Shown here: piece by piece, positions 41,034-57,634 of the stretch | Layout of the letters: every line of letters starts with the position of its first letter | How positions within the stretch are numbered: the first letter of the stretch is position 1 | Source of the DNA: Bacteroidia bacterium | Lineage (GTDB): Bacteria > Bacteroidota > Bacteroidia > J057 | Length of the DNA stretch: 64,000 nucleotides | Reading direction: 5' to 3' | NCBI GenBank assembly: GCA_030430575.1 | Contig: JAUIKF010000029.1 | Location: 37,329-101,328 of the forward strand | Made by a program: the position numbers and the translations under genes | Notes under the pieces: model-generated | What the model saw: only the letters and a program-made list of their open reading frames with translations | Databases searched by the model: none | What the model was told of the DNA's origin: nothing

Positions 41034-41603
41034 ATGCACCCCCGCATGTCAGCATATCAACATCAGCTCACCGCACTGAAAAATCACGACAATTCTTTTA
41101 TCCAGCAGGTCTATCAAGACTGCTCTCCGTCGATCAAGCAATTGATCCTCAGCAATGGAGGTTCAATTAGTGACGCAAAGGAAATGTTCCAAAAGGCCTT
41201 GATAGATACCTATGAAAAAGCGTTGAAGGATACCTTCACCCTCCGCGTGCCGATTTGCAATTACCTCTATCGCGTATGCAAAAATATGTGGCTGAATGAG
41301 CTGCGGAAGAAGGGGAAACATGTGACAATTTCCGATGTTGAGGGATATAAAGATGACGGGACAGGCGATGTCATGGTTCAGCAGGAAGAGGCTGCAGCTG
41401 AGGAGAAGCGCGTGGCATTGATGATGCGCCATTTCCATCGCCTGGGAAAGCAGTGCCAACAGATTTTGAAGATGCGGTGGTTTGAAAAAAAGAGCTACCA
41501 GGTTGTTGCCGAGCATCTTGATATCAGTTATGGCTACGCCAGACGAAGGGGGTCGGAATGCATGCAGCAATGGAGACGTTTGATTGAAGAAATTATTGAT
41601 TGA
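41034..41603 (+). CDS. RNA polymerase sigma factor, ECF-like (module A)
   Basis: The 189-residue protein has a sigma region 2 (SISDAKEMFQKALIDTYEKAL, NYLYRVCKNMWLNELRKK) and a region 4 helix-turn-helix (CQQILKMRWFEKKSYQVVAEHLDISYGYARRRGSECMQQWRRL). Met5 (41046) is an alternative start. The next gene encodes a membrane TPR protein likely to control it. The same pair occurs as module B at 47111-48557. The last codons (EEIID, stop) lie inside an ATTGATT-type repeat arm. Target promoters are unknown. Confidence 0.88.
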   Translation: MHPRMSAYQHQLTALKNHDNSFIQQVYQDCSPSIKQLILSNGGSISDAKEMFQKALIDTYEKALKDTFTLRVPICNYLYRVCKNMWLNELRKKGKHVTISDVEGYKDDGTGDVMVQQEEAAAEEKRVALMMRHFHRLGKQCQQILKMRWFEKKSYQVVAEHLDISYGYARRRGSECMQQWRRLIEEIID

Positions 41604-41812
41604 TTCATTATTGATTCAGCCCTACCAATTATACTTTAAACCTGATAGAAAGTCCGTTTTGACTTTTAGTCGCTTTTTGAACCATATAAGGCATTTAAGG
41701 GCATATAAGGGCAAAAAGCGGTTTTCTTAAATGTTCTTATATGCCTTATATGGTTTTATTCACAGGACATTTCACCCAGTCTAAAGTATAATAATCACTC
41801 AATCAATAATGA
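41583..41812. repeat. Nested inverted repeats between sigma factor and TPR gene
   Basis: Outer arms of ATTGATT type (41588-41615 and 41785-41812) are followed inwards by TATACTTTAAAC / GTCTAAAGTATA, and then by repeat E copy 3 (41679-41755). The left outer arm overlaps the sigma-factor stop codon. The whole ~230-bp spacer could fold into one large compound hairpin. Confidence 0.75.
41679..41755. repeat. 80-bp palindromic repeat E, copy 3
   Basis: GAACCATATAAGGCATTTAA at the left end and GCCTTATATGGTT at the right. Same design as 1891-1966 and 24471-24550. Confidence 0.75.
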
Positions 41813-41834
41813 ATAATCCTATGACTTACCCAAC

Positions 41835-42611
41835 ATGAGCGATTTTTACCCACAAATAGAAGCCTACCTAGGAGATGAGCTATCGCCAGAGGCACGAGCG
41901 GAATTTGAAGCGCGACTTCAGACGGATGAAGCCTTGCAGGCAGAGGTAGTCTCCTATCAGGAGATGATCGATGCGCTGAGAGCAGATGCTTCTCAGAAAG
42001 AAGCTGTTGCGGCGTTTCGCCAAATGATTGAACCGTTTGGTGAACAGTATTTTGCCGAGGAGCCTTCGGCAGAGGTGAAGGAGGTCGCGTGGAAGCCGCC
42101 TCAGTATCTGTGGATGGTGGCCGCAGCGGCGGTCTTACTCCTGGCCGTTTTTGTCCTTCTTCCCAAAAATATTGCTGACCCATCGAGGTCTGTTTCTGAG
42201 ATTGCCCTGGCCGAAATGCCGCCTCATGACAAGCTGGAAATGTTCATGGGAAATGGCGACAGCACGGAACTCGCAGCTGCTAAACTATTGTTTAACGCTG
42301 AAAAATATGCCGAAGCTTATGCGCCTTTAAACACATTTCTCCAACAAAACCCTACCAATAGAAACATCAAGCTTGCCGTGGGAATTTGTCTTTTAGAGAC
42401 AGAGAAATTCGCTGAGGCACTGGCCAAATTCCAGGAATTGGAAACGGAAGGGCATCGGTTTTTTAAGCAAAAAGGGGCGTGGTATACGGCCATGACCTTG
42501 CTTATCAGCGGCCAAGAAACCGAAGGCATTCAACGCTTGGAACAAATATCGGATACCGAAGGCCTCTATCAAGCCCAAGCGAAAACCTTGCTCAAGTTGC
42601 TGAGGAAGTAA
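41835..42611 (+). CDS. Membrane TPR protein, probable anti-sigma factor of module A
   Basis: The 258-residue protein has an N-terminal cytosolic part (IEAYLGDELSPEARAEFEARLQTDEALQAEV) of the form seen in anti-sigma factors without zinc. One membrane helix follows (about 95-117), then an outside region with TPR-like helices (AAAKLLFNAEKYAEAYAPLNTFLQQNPTN, KLAVGICLLETEKFAEALAKFQELE). Its paralogue at 47111-47881 has the same design and is also just downstream of a sigma factor. The proposal is that it holds the sigma factor at the membrane; this is inferred from order and architecture. Confidence 0.7.
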   Translation: MSDFYPQIEAYLGDELSPEARAEFEARLQTDEALQAEVVSYQEMIDALRADASQKEAVAAFRQMIEPFGEQYFAEEPSAEVKEVAWKPPQYLWMVAAAAVLLLAVFVLLPKNIADPSRSVSEIALAEMPPHDKLEMFMGNGDSTELAAAKLLFNAEKYAEAYAPLNTFLQQNPTNRNIKLAVGICLLETEKFAEALAKFQELETEGHRFFKQKGAWYTAMTLLISGQETEGIQRLEQISDTEGLYQAQAKTLLKLLRK

Positions 42612-47110: not shown

Positions 47111-47881
47111 CTAATCACATTCCTTCAACTTTTTCCACTTTTTCAATAACGCTGACGCCTCCGCCTGTCTGTCATGGGCTGGTTGCTGAGAAATATCTTC
47201 CAAGATGGGTTTCGCTTTGTCGATTTGGCCGAGGGCCAAATGGCAGAGGGCTATGTACCACTGGCTGAGCTGTACGGCGGGGCCATCAGTCACGCCTGCC
47301 AAACTGGTGAGGGCAGCCGTATAATCTCCTTGTTGCATCAAGCTTTGGCCTAGAAAAAATCGCGCTTCAATTTGCAGCTCCGGACTAAGAGTACCCATCG
47401 CCAAGGCTTGTTGATAGCTGGCAGCAGCTTCGACAGGTTTTGCCTCATTGAAGCGGGTGTGCCCACTTCTCAGGAGCTGCGTCGCATCTTGAGCCTGTCC
47501 GGCATATTGGGGGGCATCTCGGGGGATAAATACCTCGGCATACAGTTCTTCAGGGCAATAGCGGCCCGTGTTGGGAAGTACCCAGAAGACGGCGATCAAG
47601 ATCGCCAATACCGCTGCGATAACAAGGCTATAGGGGAGGAGGCGAAAGGGACGGGCAGATTGTTTTTTATCAAATTGGCGATAAAGGTCAGTGAGATCTG
47701 TTTTTTGCTGTTTATGAGCGGGGTAGCCGTGCAACACGTCTTCGAATGATCGATGTCTGGCAAGCGCCTCAGCGACCACAGGGTCCGTCTGAAGCCTTTG
47801 TTCAAAGGCTTCTTTCTCTGACGCTGTCAGTTCCTCTGCCAGGTAGGCGATTATTTCATCATCGATTGTATCCCAAGCCAT
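47111..47881 (-). CDS. Membrane TPR protein, probable anti-sigma factor of module B
   Basis: The 256-residue protein is a paralogue of 41835-42611. Its N-terminal cytosolic part (IDDEIIAYLAEELTASEKEAFEQRLQTDPVVAEALARH) has the anti-sigma form, one membrane helix lies near 83-103, and the outside part holds TPR helices (ATQLLRSGHTRFNEAKPVEAAASYQQAL, ARFFLGQSLMQQGDYTAALTSL, YIALCHLALGQIDKAKPILEDI). It follows the sigma factor at 47985-48557 with a 103-bp gap on the same strand. It probably restrains that sigma factor until an envelope signal is sensed through its TPRs. Confidence 0.72.
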   Translation of the reverse strand: MAWDTIDDEIIAYLAEELTASEKEAFEQRLQTDPVVAEALARHRSFEDVLHGYPAHKQQKTDLTDLYRQFDKKQSARPFRLLPYSLVIAAVLAILIAVFWVLPNTGRYCPEELYAEVFIPRDAPQYAGQAQDATQLLRSGHTRFNEAKPVEAAASYQQALAMGTLSPELQIEARFFLGQSLMQQGDYTAALTSLAGVTDGPAVQLSQWYIALCHLALGQIDKAKPILEDISQQPAHDRQAEASALLKKWKKLKECD

Positions 47882-47984
47882 GTTTTATTTTTTAAAAAAT
47901 AAATGGAACCGCTTGAATTTATAAATACCTGATTTTCAGCCTTTTATTAAAAAACTAACCATTCATTCAAAATTATTTCCTTCT

Positions 47985-48557
47985 CTAAGCTCCCATGCAT
48001 TGTCGAAGCCTCCTCATACACCTACCGCCTTGATTTCTGGCGGATTGTTCGACATAGCCTAAGCGCTTCGCGATGTCCGTCCACTGTACTTGTGGCTCAT
48101 CAAAATACCGCCATTTGATGATTTTTTGGCACTTCTCGTCTAATTTTTTCAAACAATCTTCAAGCTTACTATACATTGAGTTTTGTTCCTCAGCCTGAGA
48201 AATCATCTCCTCAATGCTTTCATCGAGATCGGCGATATCTTCCTCAAACTCTCCCAAAAGCAGTTCTTTGCTGCTTTGCCCGCCCGTTCCCATATTAAAA
48301 ACAATCCCTTTAAAATAAGCGACTAAGCAGCTATCTGTTTGATAACGTAGCTTTTTCCCTTTATCGAAAAAAACATACAGGGCTTCCGTCGCTCCAGTGA
48401 CCAAGTCCTCAAGGTCTTCTTTGTTTCCCTTATTTTTCTGTACTACACGCCGATTTGCCTTGTGGGTCAGCCGCCATAGTTCAAGCGTCGCCCTTCCACG
48501 CGCCGCGCCTCCTGCCAAAATCATGTTGAGTAGACGGTCTTCTGTTGAACGGCTCAT
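47985..48557 (-). CDS. RNA polymerase sigma factor, ECF-like (module B)
   Basis: The 190-residue protein has a divergent region 2 (NKEDLEDLVTGATEALYVFFDKGKKL, YQTDSCLVAYFKGIVFNMG) and a clear region 4 (DEKCQKIIKWRYFDEPQVQWTDIAKRLGYVEQSARNQGGRCMRRLRQCM), close in form to module A. It is divergent from the subtilase gene at 48700 (142-bp spacer) and heads a two-gene unit with the TPR membrane protein. The position suggests that it controls the secreted protease locus to its right, but no target promoter can be read. Confidence 0.85.
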   Translation of the reverse strand: MSRSTEDRLLNMILAGGAARGRATLELWRLTHKANRRVVQKNKGNKEDLEDLVTGATEALYVFFDKGKKLRYQTDSCLVAYFKGIVFNMGTGGQSSKELLLGEFEEDIADLDESIEEMISQAEEQNSMYSKLEDCLKKLDEKCQKIIKWRYFDEPQVQWTDIAKRLGYVEQSARNQGGRCMRRLRQCMGA

Positions 48558-48699
48558 TTAACTAGTGTAACAATTACCCAAAACATACCCCAAGGTATTG
48601 AAAAAATACGATGGCAAAAAAATTTGGTAAAAAGGTGAGTACAGATGGAGGGTTCTGGATACTGGTTAACTATCAACCATAAAACCATTTAACTCCTTA

Positions 48700-51075
48700 A
48701 TGATGAAACCAACTATTTATCTATCAATGATCCTGTGCCTTTGGATAGGCATTACCAGTATCCCTGTTTCTGCCCAGACCTTTCCTTTCCGAAAGGATAC
48801 GGAGATGTTCACGCCCTTGGAATGGCAGCCCAAACTCAGGAATTTTCCCTCGGATGCAAACAACAATTATGTAACAGATAGCCTGGAGAATATCCCGACT
48901 GGAGCTGCTGATGTATTGGTATATTTAAACAAAACCCCACGTGCAAGCACCCTAACGAGCCTAAGGGCTTACGGTGTATTGGGTTTTCGGGCAAAATATA
49001 TCAGCATCGTCAAATTGCGAAAAGTTCCTGTAGACTCTCTCCTAGCGCTCGGCCAACATCCCGATGTCGCGATGGTAGATGTCGACTGGCCCGTGTATCC
49101 CACCTTGGATGTCAGCACCAAGGCCATGAAGGTGTATTCTAGTACGGAGTATGCTAATAATCTCGAAGACAAATGTCCTGGCTCTGACGGTACAGGTGTA
49201 GGCATTGCCATCATCGATACGGGCGTAGATGACGGGCAGCATGAGAGTTTGCCCGGAAGTAAGTTTGTCGGCGGATATAATGTCTTTACCCAACTAGAAG
49301 GCAATCCTGACGATGACATTGGCCATGGAACCCATGTGGCGAGCACGGCATTGGGCATCGGCAATGGCACCACGAATAAGGGCGTAGCGCCAGGGGCTAA
49401 CTTGATTGACATCAAGGTATTCAGTGCGACGCAAAATCCTACGACTTCTCAAATCATTGATGGGGTAGAGAAATGTATCCAGCGTAGATATGATTGGGGT
49501 ATTAAGGTAATCAATATGAGTTTAGGGCAAGGGTGTAGTCCGACAACTTGCTGGTCAGGAAATGGAGATGATGCCCTTTCTTATGTTGTCAATCGAGCCG
49601 TATATTATGGGATGAATGTAGTCGTAAGTGCAGGCAATTGTGGGGCTACACCATCTAGTGTCATTTGTGGAAATGGACCGGCTAATAGAGTGGGAATCCC
49701 TGGGACAGCACGTGATGCCATCACGGTAGCCAATGCCGATGATATGGGTACGGTAAGTCGTGCAGACGATGATATCTTCCCAACCTCTGCCATTGGCATT
49801 TTACTCAATGGCGACCCCAAGCTAGACGTAGCAGCCTACGGCACCAATATTCTTGCAGCGCAGCATAATACGGTTTCTGGCTATCTCAATGCCACAGGCA
49901 CTTCCATGGCAGCTCCCCACGTCGCTGGCCTTGCGGCCATCATCCATCAGGCAACGCCGGGTGTCACCCCGTCGGGTGTCAAGCAACTGCTGATCCAGAC
50001 GGTTGAAGACAGAGGTGCTACGGGTTGGGACAATCGCTGGGGGCACGGACTAGTAGATGCCTATGCGACAATGGATGCGCTCAAAAACACTTCAGGCACC
50101 GACCTGAAGTTCAATGTCTACTGTGGCCAGTCTGGCAACCCTACCTGGTGGGATTCTCCGGACCTCTATCCCGCGAATCCCGCTATTCAAGACGGCGTCC
50201 CCAATACGATTCATGCTGAAATCACCAATTGTGGCACACAAGATGCCCACAATTTTTCGGTCAGAATTGGTATCTACAATTTCAGCAATTCGGATCCCGA
50301 TTACTTCATTTGTCAGGTGCCTGTCAGCTTCCTAGCTGCGGGCAATACGATAACTGTGATGTGCAACTGGACTCCATCGATCAGCACCGTGGGCACTGTT
50401 CACGCCTGTCTGAAAAGTGAAATCGTCTACGCGCACGACACCGATTTCTCCAACAACTGTGCGCAGCACAATGTCGATATCACAAGGACAGTCAACAACA
50501 TTGCGGACTTCCAGTTTGAGGTGCGCAACAACCAAGCGCAGCCCATTCAGGTCATCATTGACCCGATCCTCCAAGCAGGCCTAGACAGGGAGTGGAATTT
50601 CAAATTTTCAAAGCTGAACTTCTTCATGGAAGAAGGTGTCCCTCCTGAAATCGTGACTGTTCAAGCCACCAAACTGCCTGCCTCAACTGCGAACTTTGAC
50701 ACAGCGACGGTTCATGTCCCGATTATAGCTGTGTTGACCCAGGCCGTAGGAAACTTCTCCGAAGGCGATACGGTGAATATCGGCGGTGTGACGCTGCAAG
50801 CAGTCGATGGCACCACAGGACTGGAGGACAAATGGCCCTTGTCTGATGCACTGAAAATAGCTCCTACAGGCGATGCGGGCATGTACTTCGTGACCCATGA
50901 CTTCGAAGACTTCGGAGTGCATGCGGTGAAGGTCCTTGACCTTCAAGGGCGTGTCGTGAAGACCTTTGGTGTTCGGGGTGAGGGAAGCTACCTCCTCGAT
51001 GCTTCAGCGTTCGCTGATGGGCTGTATCTGTTGCAAACAGATGGGAGTCGTGGGGTGAAGTTTGTGAAGTGGTAG
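48700..51075 (+). CDS. Secreted subtilisin-like serine peptidase (S8) with type A T9SS sorting domain
   Basis: The 791-residue protein has a signal peptide (ending PVSAQ), a propeptide-like region (27-150) and an S8 domain with the complete triad: Asp173 (IAIIDTGVD), His209 (GHGTHVAS), Ser402 (GTSMAAPHVAG), and oxyanion Asn313 (SAGNCG). Beta domains follow, and the end (VKVLDLQGRVVKTFGVRG...DASAFADGLYLLQTD) is a type A T9SS domain. It should be released or attached at the cell surface. It lies divergent from a sigma factor and upstream of a receptor-like and a CHAT protein. Its substrate is unknown. A second ATG directly follows the first. Confidence 0.93.
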   Translation: MMKPTIYLSMILCLWIGITSIPVSAQTFPFRKDTEMFTPLEWQPKLRNFPSDANNNYVTDSLENIPTGAADVLVYLNKTPRASTLTSLRAYGVLGFRAKYISIVKLRKVPVDSLLALGQHPDVAMVDVDWPVYPTLDVSTKAMKVYSSTEYANNLEDKCPGSDGTGVGIAIIDTGVDDGQHESLPGSKFVGGYNVFTQLEGNPDDDIGHGTHVASTALGIGNGTTNKGVAPGANLIDIKVFSATQNPTTSQIIDGVEKCIQRRYDWGIKVINMSLGQGCSPTTCWSGNGDDALSYVVNRAVYYGMNVVVSAGNCGATPSSVICGNGPANRVGIPGTARDAITVANADDMGTVSRADDDIFPTSAIGILLNGDPKLDVAAYGTNILAAQHNTVSGYLNATGTSMAAPHVAGLAAIIHQATPGVTPSGVKQLLIQTVEDRGATGWDNRWGHGLVDAYATMDALKNTSGTDLKFNVYCGQSGNPTWWDSPDLYPANPAIQDGVPNTIHAEITNCGTQDAHNFSVRIGIYNFSNSDPDYFICQVPVSFLAAGNTITVMCNWTPSISTVGTVHACLKSEIVYAHDTDFSNNCAQHNVDITRTVNNIADFQFEVRNNQAQPIQVIIDPILQAGLDREWNFKFSKLNFFMEEGVPPEIVTVQATKLPASTANFDTATVHVPIIAVLTQAVGNFSEGDTVNIGGVTLQAVDGTTGLEDKWPLSDALKIAPTGDAGMYFVTHDFEDFGVHAVKVLDLQGRVVKTFGVRGEGSYLLDASAFADGLYLLQTDGSRGVKFVKW

Positions 51076-51085
51076 GGGGGAGCCT

Positions 51086-51221
51086 AGTGCCTTCTATCCT
51101 TAGTTTTTAACTTTCGAACACGTGTTAGGTCTACCCACCACAATGCTGATAGACCTAACACGTGTTCTCGGGAAAACCCCTCCTAGCATACTACTAATTA
51201 CTAAGGGCAGAAGGTACTAGT
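51086..51221. terminator. Nested inverted repeat after the subtilase gene
   Basis: Outer arms AGTGCCTTCTATCCTTAGT / ACTAAGGGCAGAAGGTACT enclose an inner stem CGAACACGTGTTAGGTCTA / TAGACCTAACACGTGTTCTCG (51115-51170). The inner hairpin has a near copy at 62504-62560, with a homologous loop in opposite orientation. It begins 11 bp after the stop. Confidence 0.7.
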
Positions 51222-51350
51222 TCATTCAAAGGCAGCTTTAACATTAGGCAGCCTTTGATTTTTATAAAAATAGGATTTTACAATAAGCAAGAGTATATTT
51301 ATTTCCCTAGATAAAATTTTCCATTCCATTTAATATCAAAAATACACATT

Positions 51351-53414
51351 ATGAATTTCTCCCACACCCTTTTTCAGCTAAATCCTTTGCGTATTGGCGC
51401 TCATCAAAAAATATTATCAATCGTTCTGTTAGCCTTCTTTTTGTTGGTATGTTGGGGCAAGGGGCATGCACAGTATTATCTATCTGATCCTGCTTGTGAT
51501 CTTATTTCTGGGGATGATTTCAGCAGTTATACTTGTACACCTCCTCCTTCTGACTGCACCTCTGGCGCCCCGTTTTTTTATGATGGGACAACCTTTTGTA
51601 TTTGTGAAATCCCTGAAGATCCTTTTTTCCCAGAGGCTAGTGGAGGCTTAGACCTCACTTGTTATCAGTTTTTCTGGGATTTTGGGGATGGGAATCACGG
51701 GTGTGGGGTATCTCCTACTCATACTTACGAATTTCCAGGCAGCTACCCTGTGAACCTGATTATTACCAAAAAATATACAGATGACGACGATGGTGGGCCT
51801 GGTACCAATAGCTGTGTAGGAGGTACCGCAGCAGGCGTGATAAAGCAAGCCGTTTTTGCACTCCCTACCACCTCAATTGTGGTTAATTCGGCAGATGCCG
51901 CTAATACACAACTCCCTTATTGGGGAGATAACTTCACGAGTTGTTTGGTCCAACCCATCCAACGGCCGCATTTTGGAGAAGATGTATGGGTCATGGTATC
52001 GTTACCTCCTACAACCAATGGCACTTTCACCTTTACCTTTGATGACATATTATTTTCTTTTGGGGGGAGTAATGATGACTATATCTGGAGTCACCCTGAT
52101 CCTTCTCCAAATGGCACTTACACTGAACATTCTTTTGACCCTCATACATCAGGAGAAGTAGAATTTGAACTTACAGCCACAGAATCGAGCTTCTTTCTTT
52201 TCAAATTGACGGTTACAAGTGATGATGAGCTGGAGAATCTTGATTATTCTTTTTCAGTGGATTTAGTTCCCAATCCTGATGCCCCTAATGGTTCTGGGTG
52301 TAGTAAAACGTATGTGTCTACGGAAGGAATTGGTCCCAAAGATCCTAATGATAAGACTGTTGACAAGCGGTTTATTTATTCAGATCAAGTGGAGACATTG
52401 GTGTATGAGATTGAGTTTTATAATATTGGGACAGGCCCCGCACAGATAATCACTGTCAGTGATCAATTGGATATTAATAAGCTTAATCAAGGGACATTTC
52501 AGATGCAGTGGGTGAAATTAAATGATGTTGTATATCCTGGAAATTCTCAGGCCACTATTGGTTGTGATAATTATTTGATGATTAATGGATTTAACCCAAC
52601 AGTTTCTTCAACAGGACTTATTCAATGGAAATTTGACCCAAGTTCAATTTCCATGAATTCTAATTGTGATCCATTGGAGGTTGGCCTGAATGGAACTGCT
52701 CAAAATGGATTTGGGTTTTCTTTACCAGCATATCAACTTGCTCTTGTTGGCTCTTCTGGAAGCCCCGGCGGGTCTAGTTCAGTCATTGGTAATATCATAA
52801 ACCCAGGCCCAAGCACTGCAGGAGTTCAGGATTTTCGGACAAAAATAACCCTTTCTTTCTATATCCAAACCATTCCCGATTCAATACCCTGCGGCGAAAC
52901 CATCGAGAACAAAGCTTCAATTCAATTTGAGGAATTGGAATGGTTTACCACTTCCACTGCCAAGACAACCAAGGTCTGCTGCCAACAATCCACCTGTAAT
53001 GAGATCGTTGATGTTAACAATATATTTAAGCAAGAACTACAGGGAGTAGATTGGGTAAATGACAGCGTCAAAGTGGTTTCTACTATTGGAGGGGAGCTAA
53101 GAGAACTCCCAAATACTTGGCAGATGCAGTACGATCCTGCCTACTCAGGCGCTGATATTATCACCATTCAAGTCTGTAACCAAAATGGCTGTGAGACCTA
53201 TCAGAAAACAATTTGTGTAAATATTGATCCCCAAGACCCAAAATTTGCTTGCGATTCGCCATGTCCAGTGGATTGTGAACCCAAGGATAGCAGGGTACCC
53301 ATTGGAGAGATTCTCATAGCTATTGTCGTCATCGCTGGATTGTGGTATGTGGGTCCTAAGCTATGGCGAGGTTTTGTCAGGTGGCGAAATATGCTCAAAG
53401 AAAGAATGGGTTAA
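51351..53414 (+). CDS. Receptor-like single-pass membrane protein with a PKD domain
   Basis: The 687-residue protein has a signal peptide (cleavage near GKGHAQ), a cysteine-containing N-terminal region, a PKD-like domain (CYQFFWDFGDGNHGCGVSPTHTYEFPGSYPVNL, about 100-140) and a DPNDK-type domain common in T9SS-linked proteins (GPKDPNDKTVDKRFIYSDQVETLVYEI). After a Cys-rich segment (FACDSPCPVDCEPKD) a single membrane helix at about 652-672 leads to a basic cytosolic tail (RGFVRWRNMLKERMG). So most of it faces outside. It lies 49 bp upstream of the CHAT gene and may be co-transcribed. TATATTTA at 51294-51301 is a possible -7 box. Function is not known. Confidence 0.65.
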   Translation: MNFSHTLFQLNPLRIGAHQKILSIVLLAFFLLVCWGKGHAQYYLSDPACDLISGDDFSSYTCTPPPSDCTSGAPFFYDGTTFCICEIPEDPFFPEASGGLDLTCYQFFWDFGDGNHGCGVSPTHTYEFPGSYPVNLIITKKYTDDDDGGPGTNSCVGGTAAGVIKQAVFALPTTSIVVNSADAANTQLPYWGDNFTSCLVQPIQRPHFGEDVWVMVSLPPTTNGTFTFTFDDILFSFGGSNDDYIWSHPDPSPNGTYTEHSFDPHTSGEVEFELTATESSFFLFKLTVTSDDELENLDYSFSVDLVPNPDAPNGSGCSKTYVSTEGIGPKDPNDKTVDKRFIYSDQVETLVYEIEFYNIGTGPAQIITVSDQLDINKLNQGTFQMQWVKLNDVVYPGNSQATIGCDNYLMINGFNPTVSSTGLIQWKFDPSSISMNSNCDPLEVGLNGTAQNGFGFSLPAYQLALVGSSGSPGGSSSVIGNIINPGPSTAGVQDFRTKITLSFYIQTIPDSIPCGETIENKASIQFEELEWFTTSTAKTTKVCCQQSTCNEIVDVNNIFKQELQGVDWVNDSVKVVSTIGGELRELPNTWQMQYDPAYSGADIITIQVCNQNGCETYQKTICVNIDPQDPKFACDSPCPVDCEPKDSRVPIGEILIAIVVIAGLWYVGPKLWRGFVRWRNMLKERMG

Positions 53415-53463
53415 ACATTCAGGTTTTTTGTTGTACATTGAATGCAACTAAAGACCTTGCTCA

Positions 53464-56259
53464 ATGCATCTCAAACTCTGGTTTGTCCTTATTTTGACAT
53501 CTCTATGCCTTCAAGCACAGGCTTTCGATCCTCCGGAAGCCTGGCGGCAATTTATTTCTAAAGCTGTCAATATGTTGGAGGAAGGCCAGCAGGATAGTGC
53601 AAATGCATATATCGCAAAAGCATTGGAGCAAACAGATAATCGATCTGATTCCGTTCGATGTTATTCAACGCTTGGGTATTATTGTTACAAAGAAGGGCTA
53701 TATCAAGAGGCTATTCCGATTTTTGAAAACGCTATTGAATTTCATCTCGATACGTTAGAAGAAACCTTAACAGCCCATTACTATCGCGCCAGGTCTCTAT
53801 TCCTCCTTGGCGAAACTCCTAAAAAGACCCTTGATGCGTATAGGCAATCCATCAGGATTGCGGATAAGGTAAAAACACCTTATACCGAATATCAAAAAGG
53901 GAATAGCCTCATAAAAGTTGGACAATACTATGCAAAAATAGGAGAAGTAGAACGAGCGAAAGTTTGCTATCTACAAGCCCTTGAGATAGGGCAAAGAAAA
54001 GAACATCAGCATAAGTCTCTAGCAGAAAGGTGCTTTATTGAACTAGGAATCATTTATTGGGTGGAATTAGATTTTTCAGCTGCCATAACACATTATCATA
54101 AAGCCTTATCCATAGACCATATCAAACCAACCCATCGGGCGCATACCTACGACCGTCTAGGAGAGACGTATACCTCCTTAAAAAAATATGAAGAAGCGCT
54201 CTTACATCTTGAGAAAGCCATAAGCATCTACCAGGCCTCGGAGGAAGAAGAAGAGATGCTAAAAGTCCAAGCCAGTCAAGCAGAAGTCCTATTAAAAATG
54301 GGGCGCTACGCAGAAGCGGAAAGCCTCCTTGTAGAAGTCTTCACAGCATGGCGCAATCTCGAAAGCGATGAAAACACCCGCGAATTTGCCAAAATGCAAC
54401 TCGTGGCGGGAGAGACCTATTTAGCACAAAAAAAATACGACCAAGCCCTCAGCCATTACCAAAAAGCCCTACAAGCGGTCGTCAAAGACTCCTTAGGCCT
54501 ATCTGCCGACCCAAGAGTGCACCCTACCCATGAAATGATCTATGCAGAGAATGTCTTTCAGGATGGGCTGAATGGGAAGGGAAAGGCCTTTTTGGCCAGA
54601 TACCAGGCTGAAAAAGACGTCCAAGACCTACAGACTGCTTTTTCTGCTTTTACCTTGGCCATGGCAGTTGACGATACTTTGCGGAAGGAATTCAGTGCGA
54701 CCTCTTCCAAGTCTATCCTCGCTACAGAAACCCACTGGCGTACCGGATTTGCCCTAGAAACTGTGAAGTTATTGGAAAAAGAAACGGGCGATTCTATGGT
54801 GGATACAGTCTTCACCTTGCTAGAGCACAGCCGTGCCATGGACTTGTATGGGACGCTAATAGAGGCACAGGCCAGCATCGAAGAAGGTATTCCTCCTGAA
54901 TTGCGCACCTTGCGAGCAGAAATGAGAATGGCCTTATCGGCTTGTAAATCTCGTTGGGCGGAGAATGATGCCGTGTTTATCGATTCAGCCTGTGCGCTAG
55001 TCCGCCACCAACTTGACTCCTTGGATCAAGCATTGGAGAAAGACTTTCCTACGTACCATCTGAAGAAGTTTCAGTTTGACATGAAGCGGTTAGCGGTTAT
55101 TCAAGAAAAACTGAAGGAGGACCAGGCACTGATTGAATATTTTTGGGGGAAAGAAACGCTTATTGGACTGATCGTGACTAAATCACGCGCAGACTGGAAA
55201 CAGTTGGGAAAAAGCACTGAGGTAGCAGCGCTCTTGGAAAAACTGAACTTTGCCCAATACACCTCTCCTGCCCAAACTGCCCAGCCCCTATATGAACTCT
55301 ACTCCCGATTATTAGCTCCTTTTGGTTCCCTTCCCAAACACCTGATCCTCATTCCCGACGATAGCTTACACCATCTACCTTTCGAAGCATTGCTTACACA
55401 CCCCCCAACAAGGGCGGTCCAGCTAGATGCCGATTTTTGGAAAGGGCAGCGGGTAGATAAAGGGGCCGATTATTTACTCTATCATCACCAGGTCCAGTAT
55501 GCCCACTCAGCTACTTTATTATTTCTCAATAAGAAAAAGGAGACAAAAGGGTCCAATATGGCTGTTTTTGCGCCGACTTATACTGCCACTGACAGTTTTC
55601 AGCATCAACAAATTGAATCTTGGCCTGGAAACGAAGCCCACGCACACAAACTGGCCGAATTGATGAATGCAAAAGCATACGTGGGTCCCCAGGCTGATAG
55701 CACCACTTTTGTCCAACATGCTGCTCAATACGACCTCCTCCACCTGGCCTTGCACGGCTATGCAGATGTGGAGAATCCGCTCTTGGCAGCCTTGGCATTT
55801 AGCTCGGCAGATGGAAGCAAAGGCATCGTAAATGCCGCGACCCTCTATGGCCTTCCACCCATGCAGGCAGAGCTGGTGAGCCTACTCTCTTGCGAGACGG
55901 GCGCGGGGCAGTACGCCCGAGGCGAAGGCATCATGAGCTTGGCACGTGCCTTCCGCTACGCGGGCGCCAATAGCGTCCTGATGAGCCTTTGGCAGGCCGA
56001 GACAGGCCAAGGGGTAAAACTAATGGAAAGCTTTTATCAATACCTGAAAAATGGCATGGATAAGTCTGCCGCCCTCCAACAAGCCAAAATTGATTGGCTC
56101 GCTGATGCCGATGGCATCAGCGCACAACCCGCCCAATGGGCCAGTTTTGTACTGATCGGCAATGCCGATTCTATCGCGCGGAGGCCATCAAGATGGCCTT
56201 ATGTGTTGGGGGGAATTTTGCTGCTGACAGCGTTGCTGCTGTGGTGGAGGCGGGGATAA
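53464..56259 (+). CDS. Exported TPR-CHAT protein (caspase-like peptidase fold)
   Basis: The 931-residue protein has a signal peptide (1-20, LCLQAQA), about eight TPRs up to residue 350 (for example ACVYSTLGYYCYKEGLYQEA-like and YEEALLHLEKAISIYQ units), a helical middle, and a CHAT domain from about 590 to 905. The catalytic residues are present: His764 in LHLALHGYAD and Cys810 in SLLSCETGAG. A membrane helix (913-927) and WWRRG tail end the protein, so the CHAT domain faces away from the cytoplasm. CHAT proteins are peptidases of the caspase clan, often activated through partner binding to TPRs. Its operon partner is probably the receptor-like protein 49 bp upstream. Confidence 0.9.
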   Translation: MHLKLWFVLILTSLCLQAQAFDPPEAWRQFISKAVNMLEEGQQDSANAYIAKALEQTDNRSDSVRCYSTLGYYCYKEGLYQEAIPIFENAIEFHLDTLEETLTAHYYRARSLFLLGETPKKTLDAYRQSIRIADKVKTPYTEYQKGNSLIKVGQYYAKIGEVERAKVCYLQALEIGQRKEHQHKSLAERCFIELGIIYWVELDFSAAITHYHKALSIDHIKPTHRAHTYDRLGETYTSLKKYEEALLHLEKAISIYQASEEEEEMLKVQASQAEVLLKMGRYAEAESLLVEVFTAWRNLESDENTREFAKMQLVAGETYLAQKKYDQALSHYQKALQAVVKDSLGLSADPRVHPTHEMIYAENVFQDGLNGKGKAFLARYQAEKDVQDLQTAFSAFTLAMAVDDTLRKEFSATSSKSILATETHWRTGFALETVKLLEKETGDSMVDTVFTLLEHSRAMDLYGTLIEAQASIEEGIPPELRTLRAEMRMALSACKSRWAENDAVFIDSACALVRHQLDSLDQALEKDFPTYHLKKFQFDMKRLAVIQEKLKEDQALIEYFWGKETLIGLIVTKSRADWKQLGKSTEVAALLEKLNFAQYTSPAQTAQPLYELYSRLLAPFGSLPKHLILIPDDSLHHLPFEALLTHPPTRAVQLDADFWKGQRVDKGADYLLYHHQVQYAHSATLLFLNKKKETKGSNMAVFAPTYTATDSFQHQQIESWPGNEAHAHKLAELMNAKAYVGPQADSTTFVQHAAQYDLLHLALHGYADVENPLLAALAFSSADGSKGIVNAATLYGLPPMQAELVSLLSCETGAGQYARGEGIMSLARAFRYAGANSVLMSLWQAETGQGVKLMESFYQYLKNGMDKSAALQQAKIDWLADADGISAQPAQWASFVLIGNADSIARRPSRWPYVLGGILLLTALLLWWRRG

Positions 56260-56280
56260 TCCCCATTATCCTAGGCATGT

Positions 56281-56316
56281 AGACCCCGTAGGTTTTCGAA
56301 ACCTGCGGGGTCTTTT
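56281..56316. terminator. Terminator after the CHAT gene
   Basis: AGACCCCGTAGGTTT pairs with AAACCTGCGGGGTCT and is followed by TTT. It is a near copy of the htpG terminator at 15822-15859. Confidence 0.8.
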
Positions 56317-56464
56317 ATGCCGTTTTGAAAAAAAATGAGCCCTAAGTGAGTACAGTTTGCGGAATTCCCCTACTAGTAAAGTGTCACCCAACCTGACACG
56401 AGGAAAATGGAAACCGCCGAACCCCCACAAAGGGAGTAAGCACTCATTTTTATCCAAAATCAGT

Positions 56465-57634
56465 ATGAAAACACTTAAAGAAATCCATCCCAAACTGAAC
56501 CAACTTAAGCCTTCTGGAGAAGGCCCAGTTTGTCTCTGTGGACATGAAGGAGAATCAAAAGTAGACTTGATTGTGTTGATCGACTCTTCTGGCTCGATGG
56601 GCAGAACCTCAGCCCATGTCAGTGCTGCGGCCGCAGATGCGATCAAGGCAGCTCAGGAATCGTGTAAGGTAGACCTCCGCACCAAGTGGCTTTGGGTCGA
56701 CCGGACGATGGGCAACGCGGATGCGGCTACCCTCAACCCGTTTCCGGGCGTCTCACACAACTTTGAGGCATCGCACGAAAGGTACCTTCGCTCGATTGGC
56801 TTTTCGGGGCCATTTCCCCAAGAGACGTCTTCTACCATAGGATGGCCTGAAGGCTACAACGCAGAAGAAGGTGGAGATGCGATCCAAGTGCTGAGCCAAA
56901 GGTTTGACTGGCGGAAAGATGCCTGCCGGGCCATCTTTTACATCAGTGACACCAACCTAGACGCTTATAACTACGATGTAGATGACCAAGAAGCCACAGA
57001 CAACGCCATTGCCAGTGCCATCGCAAATGAAGTGAGTATTTTTGCCCACTATGTAGAGCCTCACCAGTATGGCGCCCCACAAACGATTGTCAATTATACC
57101 GACCTCTGTACCAAAACAGGCGGCAAAGCACAGATCGGCCAGCGCCCTTCTGAGAAGCTCTATGTCAAATTGCTTCAAGAAGCTATTTGTGAGGCGTGTA
57201 ACGGCTGCTCGAAGTATGACTTACCCCCTGCCGCTCCATGCATCTCCATCTCATGGGGAGACAGCGACTGCGACTGCCTCGAAACCAATGGCACGGAAAT
57301 CCTCCACATCACCGTCTGTAATTGCTACGCCAATATTGGCTTCTGTGATTTCTCCATAGGGTATATCCTCGCAGAGGATAAAGAAGGCAATCCCGTTGCC
57401 ATCCTTCCTGACGGGAGTCCATCCGTGGAAATCATTCCAACCGGGCCATTCTGTTTCGGAGATATTGGACCTTGTACAGATGGAGAACCTACCTGTATAA
57501 CCAGAGAATTTGTTCTTCGGACACGTGGTGCTGAGGCTGGAACCTACAGCGTCCGCCTTGGCGGGATTTGTTATAAAATAAATCATGAAAGCCACGACGA
57601 CCAGAGGTTTGATGTCAAGCTTTGCAAGGACTGA
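56465..57634 (+). CDS. Von Willebrand factor A domain protein with Cys-rich C-terminus
   Basis: The 389-residue protein has no signal peptide with the start chosen at 56465; an ATG 36 codons upstream adds a basic, unstructured stretch. After CLCGHEGESKVDL comes a vWA domain with the MIDAS motif Asp40-x-Ser42-x-Ser44 in LIVLIDSSGSMG, then AIFYISDTNLDAYNYD. The C-terminal 160 residues are rich in cysteine (CEACNGCS, DCDCL, CNCYANIGFCDF), suggesting metal binding or disulfides, although a cytosolic place would disfavour disulfides. It lies downstream of the CHAT gene but behind a terminator. Its link to the CHAT locus is positional only. Confidence 0.7.
   Translation: MKTLKEIHPKLNQLKPSGEGPVCLCGHEGESKVDLIVLIDSSGSMGRTSAHVSAAAADAIKAAQESCKVDLRTKWLWVDRTMGNADAATLNPFPGVSHNFEASHERYLRSIGFSGPFPQETSSTIGWPEGYNAEEGGDAIQVLSQRFDWRKDACRAIFYISDTNLDAYNYDVDDQEATDNAIASAIANEVSIFAHYVEPHQYGAPQTIVNYTDLCTKTGGKAQIGQRPSEKLYVKLLQEAICEACNGCSKYDLPPAAPCISISWGDSDCDCLETNGTEILHITVCNCYANIGFCDFSIGYILAEDKEGNPVAILPDGSPSVEIIPTGPFCFGDIGPCTDGEPTCITREFVLRTRGAEAGTYSVRLGGICYKINHESHDDQRFDVKLCKD

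Follow-up and report, generated by a model that had tools for sequence, protein, structure and literature searches.

A predicted exported TPR-CHAT protein paired with an ECF-like sigma factor and a predicted transmembrane TPR anti-sigma factor in Bacteroidota

In regulated proteolysis of the RseA/DegS type, a membrane anti-sigma factor receives its first cut from a shared serine protease, and the regulon concerns the envelope. Type III-E CRISPR contains the TPR-CHAT protease Csx29 and its substrate Csx30, an inhibitor of a sigma factor, CASP-sigma (PMC10028731). In the DdvS/DdvA pair of Myxococcus xanthus, DdvS controls an antiphage island. The ECF54 group, which has a model member from Geodermatophilus, is described as having no anti-sigma factor; subtilase and CHAT genes belong to its conserved neighbourhood (PMC8999054). 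The EACC2-caspase systems combine a caspase-fold protein with an ECF sigma factor and a DUF1822 TPR protein (PMC8195603).

The locus described here lies in a stretch of 64,000 nucleotides of Bacteroidia DNA, called the window below. A sigma and anti-sigma pair is transcribed divergently from the genes of an S8 peptidase, a PKD/DUF7619 protein and a TPR-CHAT protein:

47111-47881, minus strand: predicted anti-sigma factor, a TPR membrane protein of 256 residues (Pfam TPR_16, AlphaFold model)
47985-48557, minus strand: ECF-like sigma factor gene, 5' of the anti-sigma gene with a gap of 103 bp (sigma profiles below cut-off)
48558-48699, no strand: divergent intergenic region between the sigma and S8 genes, holding TGTAACAATT
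48700-51075, plus strand: S8 peptidase with a CARDB domain and a weak T9SS sorting tail (PF00082); variable exported partner
51351-53414, plus strand: PKD/DUF7619 protein with a predicted C-terminal membrane helix (PF24595, PKD_4); variable exported partner
53464-56259, plus strand: predicted exported TPR-CHAT protein (PF12770), starting 49 bp after the PKD gene

Compared with Craspase and CASP-sigma, the CHAT protein of this locus is predicted to be exported and anchored in the membrane, and the part of the inhibitor falls to a TPR protein that is predicted to span the membrane. A type III-E CRISPR system in the source genome was considered and rejected, as the genome has only two RAMP matches, in ordinary-sized frames of 264 and 513 residues, on a contig (C98) with no CHAT or anti-sigma match. 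Cas7-11, the large fused RAMP protein, is much larger than such frames. A transmembrane anti-sigma factor and an ECF sigma partner are common to DdvA/DdvS and this locus. In DdvA, however, the anti-sigma factor and a TPR-CHAT-like part would probably form one chain, whereas here they are separate genes in 88 of 88 triples, a set of loci chosen for having the two as separate genes. The CHAT and subtilase genes are shared with ECF54, but a predicted anti-sigma gene is adjacent here and the phylum is Bacteroidota, which sets the locus apart from that group. The EACC2 systems likewise share with this locus a caspase-fold protein beside an ECF sigma factor and a TPR protein; here, CHAT is encoded by a gene of its own, and its product is predicted to be exported and carries a TPR array. 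A Pfam search at E<=0.1 matched the window TPR protein to 15 families, none of them DUF1822. With RseA/DegS, the locus shares a membrane anti-sigma factor, a proposed first cut outside the cytoplasm and an envelope regulon, but the first protease proposed here is a dedicated, genetically paired enzyme of the caspase clan. A literature search of partial coverage returned no account of a TPR anti-sigma factor paired with CHAT in Bacteroidota.

The original prediction described this locus gene by gene, largely correctly overall and with partial confirmation in detail. It called the sigma factor ECF-like. The protein is one of a family of sigma paralogues in the source genome, of which 22 sequences were aligned; they display region 2 and 4 features and near-invariant L139, C143 and C180. 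Its scores nevertheless stay below the curated cut-offs of three profiles: TIGR02937 (42.3 bits, cut-off 42.9), TIGR02989 (45.0 bits, cut-off 124.55, E 1e-11) and Sigma70_r4 (17.4 bits, cut-off 24.1).

The adjacent protein was expected to be a TPR membrane protein with one helix, and this is what it proves to be. A helical N-terminal part is followed by one membrane helix at about residues 84-101, a juxtamembrane segment and a TPR domain, which matches TPR_16 at 36.9 bits (cut-off 32.7). The AlphaFold model has a pLDDT of 89.2; all matches of a Foldseek search with it are TPR chains, of which none reaches E<=0.001, and the NCBIfam anti-sigma model NF052375 gives 16.6 bits (cut-off 100). The assignment as a membrane anti-sigma factor is based on the adjacent sigma gene, the predicted cytoplasmic N-terminal domain and the single membrane helix. 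The family has 26 members in the source genome (E<=7e-37), and 25 of them adjoin a sigma gene, in one case through our own gene calls. Next to the membrane, these proteins have a conserved stretch, L[FY]AxY[FY]xPY, often followed by R-G. The R-G is conserved at 63% and 55% and is absent from the window copy.

The TPR-CHAT protein consists of a signal-like N-terminus, a TPR array, a CHAT domain and a C-terminal helix with a basic tail. It belongs to the CHAT peptidase family (PF12770, 169 bits, cut-off 24), of which the source genome has 39 matches. The signal-like start is flagged, and the C-terminal helix, which falls under the stricter cut, spans residues 911-930 in the model. The catalytic pair His764/Cys810, named in the original prediction, is intact, and the export it claimed is again predicted. 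The two residues are kept in 51 of 52 CHAT proteins, the sole exception being a fragment at a contig end, and are invariant in an alignment of 37 members, which argues for catalysis. This conservation bears on the possibility that CHAT is a non-cleaving scaffold whose TPR array binds the TPR domain of the anti-sigma factor and alters its grip on the sigma factor; TPR domains on both partners, predicted to be periplasmic, would suit such binding, but in view of the conserved pair we consider it very improbable.

Among structures in the PDB, the model of the window CHAT protein is closest to the Csx29 chains of Craspase, with separase next, in keeping with a TPR-CHAT protein of the Csx29 fold. 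It also matches the transmembrane anti-sigma factor DdvA (8rot, 8rw5) with Z of 21.5-22.4, which is not above the 24.0 of plain TPR chains. The alignment to DdvA places 573 positions in the range of residues 93-899. The helical part of this range can hold approximately 457, and the alignment therefore probably includes part of the CHAT fold. Sequence searches of solved structures with two family profiles gave TPR proteins among the best 60 matches, and with the CHAT domain alone nothing useful.

The exported partners are variable. The S8 peptidase matches PF00082 with 147.5 bits over the entire profile (1-288 of 288), has a CARDB domain (27.6, cut-off 22.7) and carries the complete triad Asp173/His209/Ser402 claimed for it. 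Its proposed export by T9SS is weakly supported, as the C-terminal tail is under the cut-offs of both PF18962 (15.9 of 27 bits) and TIGR04183 (16.8 of 23 bits); the match of this tail to our own tail model proves nothing because the tail served as its seed. The PKD protein matches PF24595 (45.9 bits, cut-off 27) and PKD_4 (42.1 bits, cut-off 27). It had been read as an outward-facing single-pass protein. The C-terminal hydrophobic stretch is present and another follows a long N-terminal lead, but the outward orientation is a prediction and a crude signal-peptide rule does not flag the protein. A PKD-family gene is found in the CHAT run at L041, L049, L125, L135, L163, L169, L170, L172 and L176, and adjoins CHAT at L059 and L122. 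The first divergent gene is exported-like in 61 of 79 runs, but among background genes 931 of 1697 are flagged by the same crude rule. When 740 neighbours drawn from the window and from the collected loci were clustered, no conserved third partner turned up in more than four loci.

A vWA-like gene follows CHAT, more likely starting at ATG 56465 than at TTG 56357. The vWA reading is based on a DSSGS motif, and the best Pfam match is CobT_C (E 0.065). Among the proteins of the window and 38 stretches of the same genome, its product matches only itself, and the 80 named CHAT loci contain no match; its 174 database relatives are mostly nameless among the 120 matches listed. As it has no counterpart at these loci, the gene was rejected as a member of the module and is probably an unrelated neighbour. 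The proposed cascade of exported proteases under sigma control, which included this gene, is accordingly supported in part: the conserved sigma/anti-sigma and CHAT unit stands, and the vWA member falls away. That earlier reading had also overlooked the 26-fold expansion of the anti-sigma family and a possible upstream role of CHAT, on the anti-sigma factor, beyond output.

The conserved unit is borne out by co-location. A strong CHAT match lies within 10 kb of 18 of the 26 own-genome anti-sigma genes, where 2.0 are expected. The pairing recurs in three relatives, where the corresponding counts are 7 of 7 in genome G152 (0.17 expected; best 11 of 13 CHATs), 8 of 13 in G001 (0.83 expected) and at least 3 of 8 in G085 (0.29 expected; best 12 of 13 CHATs). 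Conversely, 8 of the 26 anti-sigma genes are more than 10 kb away from any strong CHAT match, and 11 of 30 strong CHAT genes of the source genome lack an anti-sigma gene within that distance. An anti-sigma gene was found at 48 of 80 named loci picked by their CHAT gene, a count that includes L191, L202, L238, L253 and L259, likely duplicates of G001 loci that were excluded from the 88 triples and from the promoter counts. The original prediction held that conservation of gene order in close strains only would speak against it. The order persists beyond them: CHAT is present at 14 of 20 anti-sigma loci from outside the family, five of the 20 retain the PKD-CHAT order, and five distant loci retain the sigma/anti-sigma pair, the PKD protein and CHAT together. 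The neighbourhood could still be a chance collection of unrelated genes, as the exact window sigma factor matches nothing but itself in 149 genomes of the class (E<=1e-14) and the vWA-like gene is apparently unrelated. The co-location counts and the CHAT-selected and extra-family loci leave this explanation a negligible probability, and it was rejected. Judged from sequence comparison, the window locus is one case of a much larger pairing of anti-sigma and CHAT genes that recurs across Bacteroidota.

The two paired proteins appear to face the same compartment. The N side of the membrane helix is the more positive one in 84 of 88 anti-sigma factors, and the N-terminal domain is predicted to be cytoplasmic and the TPR domain periplasmic. 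A net basic tail is found in 84 of 88 CHAT proteins and a C-terminal helix in 78 of 88; CHAT is predicted to be exported and held in the membrane by this helix. These topologies would place the TPR parts of both proteins together on the outside.

It is possible, if rather unlikely, that CHAT is output only. The sigma factor would then be freed by other means, for example by ordinary site-1 and site-2 proteases. Its regulon would consist of the exported proteins CHAT, S8 and PKD, which would act on foreign or damaged envelope proteins. The gene order speaks in both directions. Of the 88 triples, 39 have CHAT next to sigma, 36 of them divergently, as an output gene might be, but the other 49 have it on the anti-sigma side, where the linkage exceeds a shared divergent promoter. 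The precedent of Csx29, which acts on a sigma inhibitor, is also against an output role alone, as is co-variation in 16 triples of the source genome. CHAT varies there with the anti-sigma factor (r 0.43, p 4e-4; 0.39 given sigma) more strongly than with the sigma factor (0.19, p 0.08). In all 88 triples the sigma-CHAT correlation is 0.63, on a par with the other pairs (0.64 and 0.65), which is the pattern that joint descent would give. The 16 triples also hinted that the inner part of the anti-sigma factor tracks sigma and the outer part CHAT; this was lost in the 88 and was rejected.

A likely sigma promoter, GGTAACA-N17-AT[AC]TA, was obtained from five distant relatives. Its position upstream of the effector genes in all five favors the output role; the regulon of these sigma factors likely includes the effector genes. 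In five of five relatives the motif also occurs within the sigma gene, at a distance of 294 bp from the anti-sigma gene that follows. Both positions equally suit the proposal given below, in which CHAT acts on the anti-sigma factor. In genome G430, sigma, PKD and CHAT are jointly absent, and no promoter site was found. The window contains no complete match to the motif. In its divergent region, TGTAACAATT, oriented to the S8 gene, resembles the -35 of the relatives' promoter, with the -10 absent, and is a weak candidate; the 149 class genomes gave no orthologous locus for footprinting. Comparison of the window's intergenic stretches gave short shared words only. Only in one distant group is the motif strong, and counting it at the loci from which it was derived is partly circular. 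The shorter RGGGTAACAA has 59 sites in five genomes, 15 of them at sigma loci, against 116 for the reversed control, and is thus rarer than the control genome-wide. A family-wide promoter before CHAT operons was too weak to retain, the best of 16 comparisons being 5/34 versus 9/393. L163, L169, L170, L172 and L176 were left out of that test set; the shuffle test, which used 67 of 72 divergent regions, excluded these five and L178.

Outside the locus, the relatives have six intergenic promoter sites, each upstream of a predicted envelope or exported protein; there was no sign of an antiphage island such as DdvS controls. These sites speak against a role in defence, recognition or cell death, in which the exported proteases would kill the cell or an attacker once a phage or rival is recognised. 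Such a role has parallels in DdvS and in the tie between CHAT and CRISPR in Craspase, and it would fit the many fast-diverging copies with their variable exported partners. PADLOC gave no CHAT-specific match for the window proteins and 37 CHATs, with hits to generic TPR or subtilase/IetS only; as the program covers described systems, this negative is weak evidence. We regard a defence role as improbable.

We give an even chance to the proposal that the predicted periplasmic TPR-CHAT protein is a signal-activated protease, which would cut its TPR anti-sigma partner and so free the sigma factor; the cleavage is a step that we infer. Sensing of a surface or periplasmic ligand would fall to the variable exported partners, which in the window are the S8 peptidase and the PKD protein. 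CHAT would become activated and cut the anti-sigma factor outside the membrane, and further proteolysis would release the sigma factor. The freed sigma factor would then drive transcription of the effector operon, of a small number of envelope genes and of its own anti-sigma gene, giving feedback. The many diverged copies would form parallel, insulated channels. With CHAT as the protease of the first cut, we read the module by analogy as possibly doing at the envelope what the CRISPR-linked Csx29/Csx30/sigma switch does. More tentatively, and on balance doubtfully, Bacteroidota might possess dozens of parallel, insulated envelope-sensing channels per cell, and in each of them a dedicated periplasmic caspase would cut the TPR anti-sigma factor of that channel near the membrane. 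The L[FY]AxY[FY]xPY stretch, often with R-G, would be the candidate zone, and Csx29/Csx30/CASP-sigma a cytoplasmic offshoot of an older logic.

The promoter motif and the catalytic residues provide handles for testing single channels. If the proposal is true, the pairing would account for a large share of the very many CHAT matches in the source genome, and the isolated Craspase sigma switch would acquire a large family of relatives that use the same logic. Caspase-clan proteases would then routinely switch on transcription from across the bacterial envelope, beyond cell death or CRISPR immunity.

The window locus is composed of the following genes.

Genes of the window locus
47985-48557, minus strand: sigma gene, divergent from the S8 peptidase gene
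47111-47881, minus strand: gene for a single-pass TPR protein (predicted anti-sigma), downstream of the sigma gene
48700-51075, plus strand: S8 peptidase, triad Asp173/His209/Ser402
51351-53414, plus strand: PKD/DUF7619 protein
53464-56259, plus strand: TPR-CHAT protein (CHAT), His764 and Cys810 present

The sigma protein scores slightly under the general ECF cut-off. For the S8 peptidase, the match to a T9SS tail stays under two curated cut-offs, and export via T9SS is therefore only suggested. The next gene (56465-57634, plus strand) encodes a vWA-like protein with a DSSGS motif, for which no family model scores above its cut-off. It has 174 database relatives, with identity of up to 70%; few of them are named, among these Psychrobacter, Saprospiraceae and Allosphingosinicella, and the protein represents a widespread uncharacterised family. 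The window contains another sigma/anti-sigma pair from this family (41034-42611, plus strand; sigma 41034-41603, anti-sigma 41835-42611). It has no CHAT of its own, the nearest strong CHAT match being the 53464-56259 protein, 12.7 kb away. The sigma family alignment contains two near-invariant cysteines in the region-4 half, C143 and C180 in window numbering, a possible redox or metal switch.

CHAT is matched 39 times in the 8.16 Mb genome at E≤1e-3, and 30 of these matches reach E≤1e-20. A profile of the TPR membrane protein retrieves 26 members at E≤7e-37 and then nothing until a match at 5e-15. A sigma match adjoins 24 of these 26 anti-sigmas and, by our own gene calls, one more (L056); the remaining one sits at the end of a contig. 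Strong CHAT matches are found within 10 kb of 18 of the 26 (2.0 expected) and within 5 kb of 13 (1.0 expected), while the remaining eight have none within 10 kb. In three relatives the 10 kb count is 7/7 (G152), 8/13 (G001) and 3/8 (G085, where one further CHAT adjoins the anti-sigma at locus L135). In 149 genomes of the class, including its own, the exact window sigma matches only itself at E≤1e-14: copies diverge or turn over fast. At one locus (L076:8010-14881) a sigma/anti-sigma pair adjoins an nSTAND1 NTPase gene, which is another kind of partner for CHAT, and a gene that matches CHAT weakly (39.8 bits). At another (L044:4596-6691, on contig C64 of genome G000) the membrane protein paired with the sigma gene seems to carry a formylglycine-type domain instead of TPR in its C-terminal part, possibly a sensor swap within the same anti-sigma family.

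The TPR parts of the anti-sigma and of CHAT are both likely to face the periplasm, as predicted from the following features. Among 88 anti-sigmas, 84 carry more positive charge ahead of the membrane helix than behind it. Simple hydropathy assigns a signal-peptide-like start to 43 of 52 CHATs and a C-terminal membrane helix to 45; in the CHATs of 88 sigma/anti-sigma/CHAT triples this helix is present in 78 at a looser cut, and a net positive tail lies behind it in 84. The helix of the window CHAT is under the stricter hydropathy cut, and its structure model ends in a helix at 911-930. The anti-sigma model consists of an N-terminal helical part, the membrane helix and the TPR (pLDDT 89). The catalytic His and Cys are retained in 51 of the 52 CHATs; the remaining one is a fragment at the end of a contig. 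A rival, less likely reading takes CHAT as a non-cleaving scaffold. If CHAT does cut the anti-sigma, a candidate cut zone lies between membrane helix and TPR, where a conserved L[FY]AxY[FY]xPY stretch is followed by an R-G (63% and 55% of 88); this assignment is weak because the window anti-sigma is without the R-G.

In the 16 triples from this genome, co-variation links the anti-sigma to both sigma (r 0.44, p 2e-4) and CHAT (r 0.43, p 4e-4; 0.39 given sigma), whereas sigma and CHAT co-vary only weakly (r 0.19, p 0.08). The CHAT TPR part correlates at 0.43 with the outer part of the anti-sigma and at 0.30 with the inner part, which hints at the outer part. Over all 88 triples no outer-versus-inner difference was found, and the three pairwise correlations are alike (0.64, 0.65 and 0.63), as joint descent would give. 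Of the 88 triples, 49 have CHAT on the anti-sigma side and 39 on the sigma side; CHAT is directly adjacent in 35. In a rival reading CHAT is an output only; as the proposed activator of sigma release, it would act on the anti-sigma itself.

The anti-sigma occurs in at least 30 of 296 phylum genomes, its own included (E≤1e-30), a lower bound with nine candidates scored per genome. CHAT is present in 14 of 20 anti-sigma loci outside the window's family, drawn from 16 of these genomes. Conversely, the anti-sigma is present in 48 of 80 named loci selected by CHAT alone, including loci of Fulvivirga, Aquimarina, Tenacibaculum, Gelidibacter, Mucilaginibacter, Pedobacter, Ferruginibacter, Flavisolibacter and Flavilitoribacter; both Saprospira grandis loci of this set are without it. 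At five of the 20 loci outside the family (L163, L169, L170, L172 and L176; the five distant loci below) the sigma/anti-sigma pair is divergent from a gene run with a PKD-DUF7619-family protein, preceded by a 253-328-aa gene, and CHAT; the PKD protein of L172 ends in DUF7849, not a membrane helix. When 740 neighbours were clustered, no other family was found in more than four loci, and neighbours other than sigma, anti-sigma and CHAT vary between loci. A rival, less likely reading is that such loci form a defence or recognition system.

Lipoprotein-like genes directly before CHAT in L221, L226, L235 and L240 share a C-terminal RPPCI[IF][VI][VL] tail (four of the sequences inspected); their products are possible CHAT ligands or substrates. 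A 145-aa gene follows CHAT in L163, L169, L172 and L176 and is retained in L178, where CHAT is missing. The two starts inspected (L163 and L178) contain an ILDTGASNTC stretch reminiscent of retropepsin-like aspartic proteases.

GGTAACA sites precede the divergent genes in the five distant loci, and in all five the sigma gene itself also contains one, 294 bp ahead of the anti-sigma. At the spacing of these loci, the five genomes contain 25 copies of GGTAACA-N17-AT[AC]TA (reversed control, 8). Fourteen sites are at sigma loci (3/7, 3/6, 4/5, 2/3 and 2/4 per genome), a partly circular count, these loci being the source of the motif. The other 11 comprise five inside genes and six intergenic sites, all six 27-126 bp upstream of genes whose products are predicted to be exported or to belong to the envelope: two lipoproteins related to each other, a protein of 264 aa that begins with a signal-like segment, a CarboxypepD-domain protein that weakly matches a barrel, a YkuD L,D-transpeptidase and a FadL/TodX-type protein. 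All five sigma genes have the same GTA-ACA-ATT codons, versus codon identity at only 21 of 87 invariant residues, and A-T[AC]T-A is kept even where residues differ. The intergenic sites and the in-gene conservation further support the motif as a putative promoter element. Genome G430 jointly lacks sigma, lipoprotein, PKD and CHAT, retaining the anti-sigma and flanking genes, and no site was found. Outside the five loci the signal is weaker. GTAACC, the best of 7356 words, occurs in 19 of 101 regions upstream of sigma when read toward the effector side, versus 36 of 854 controls; [GT]GTAAC[CA] is found in 15 of 67 divergent regions versus 3.2 in shuffles (toward sigma, 8 versus 2.9). There is little signal upstream of CHAT operons elsewhere, and the only promoter-like match in the window is TGTAACAATT.

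Sigma, CHAT and subtilase have been noted together for ECF54, and EACC2 systems combine sigma, a TPR protein and a caspase. What differs here is the split, exported, multi-copy Bacteroidota form, of which no description was found in the literature searched. In the proposed mechanism, a signal would activate the periplasmic CHAT, which would then cut the TPR anti-sigma outside the membrane, causing sigma to be released. The released sigma would transcribe the effector operon, envelope genes and, as feedback, the anti-sigma.
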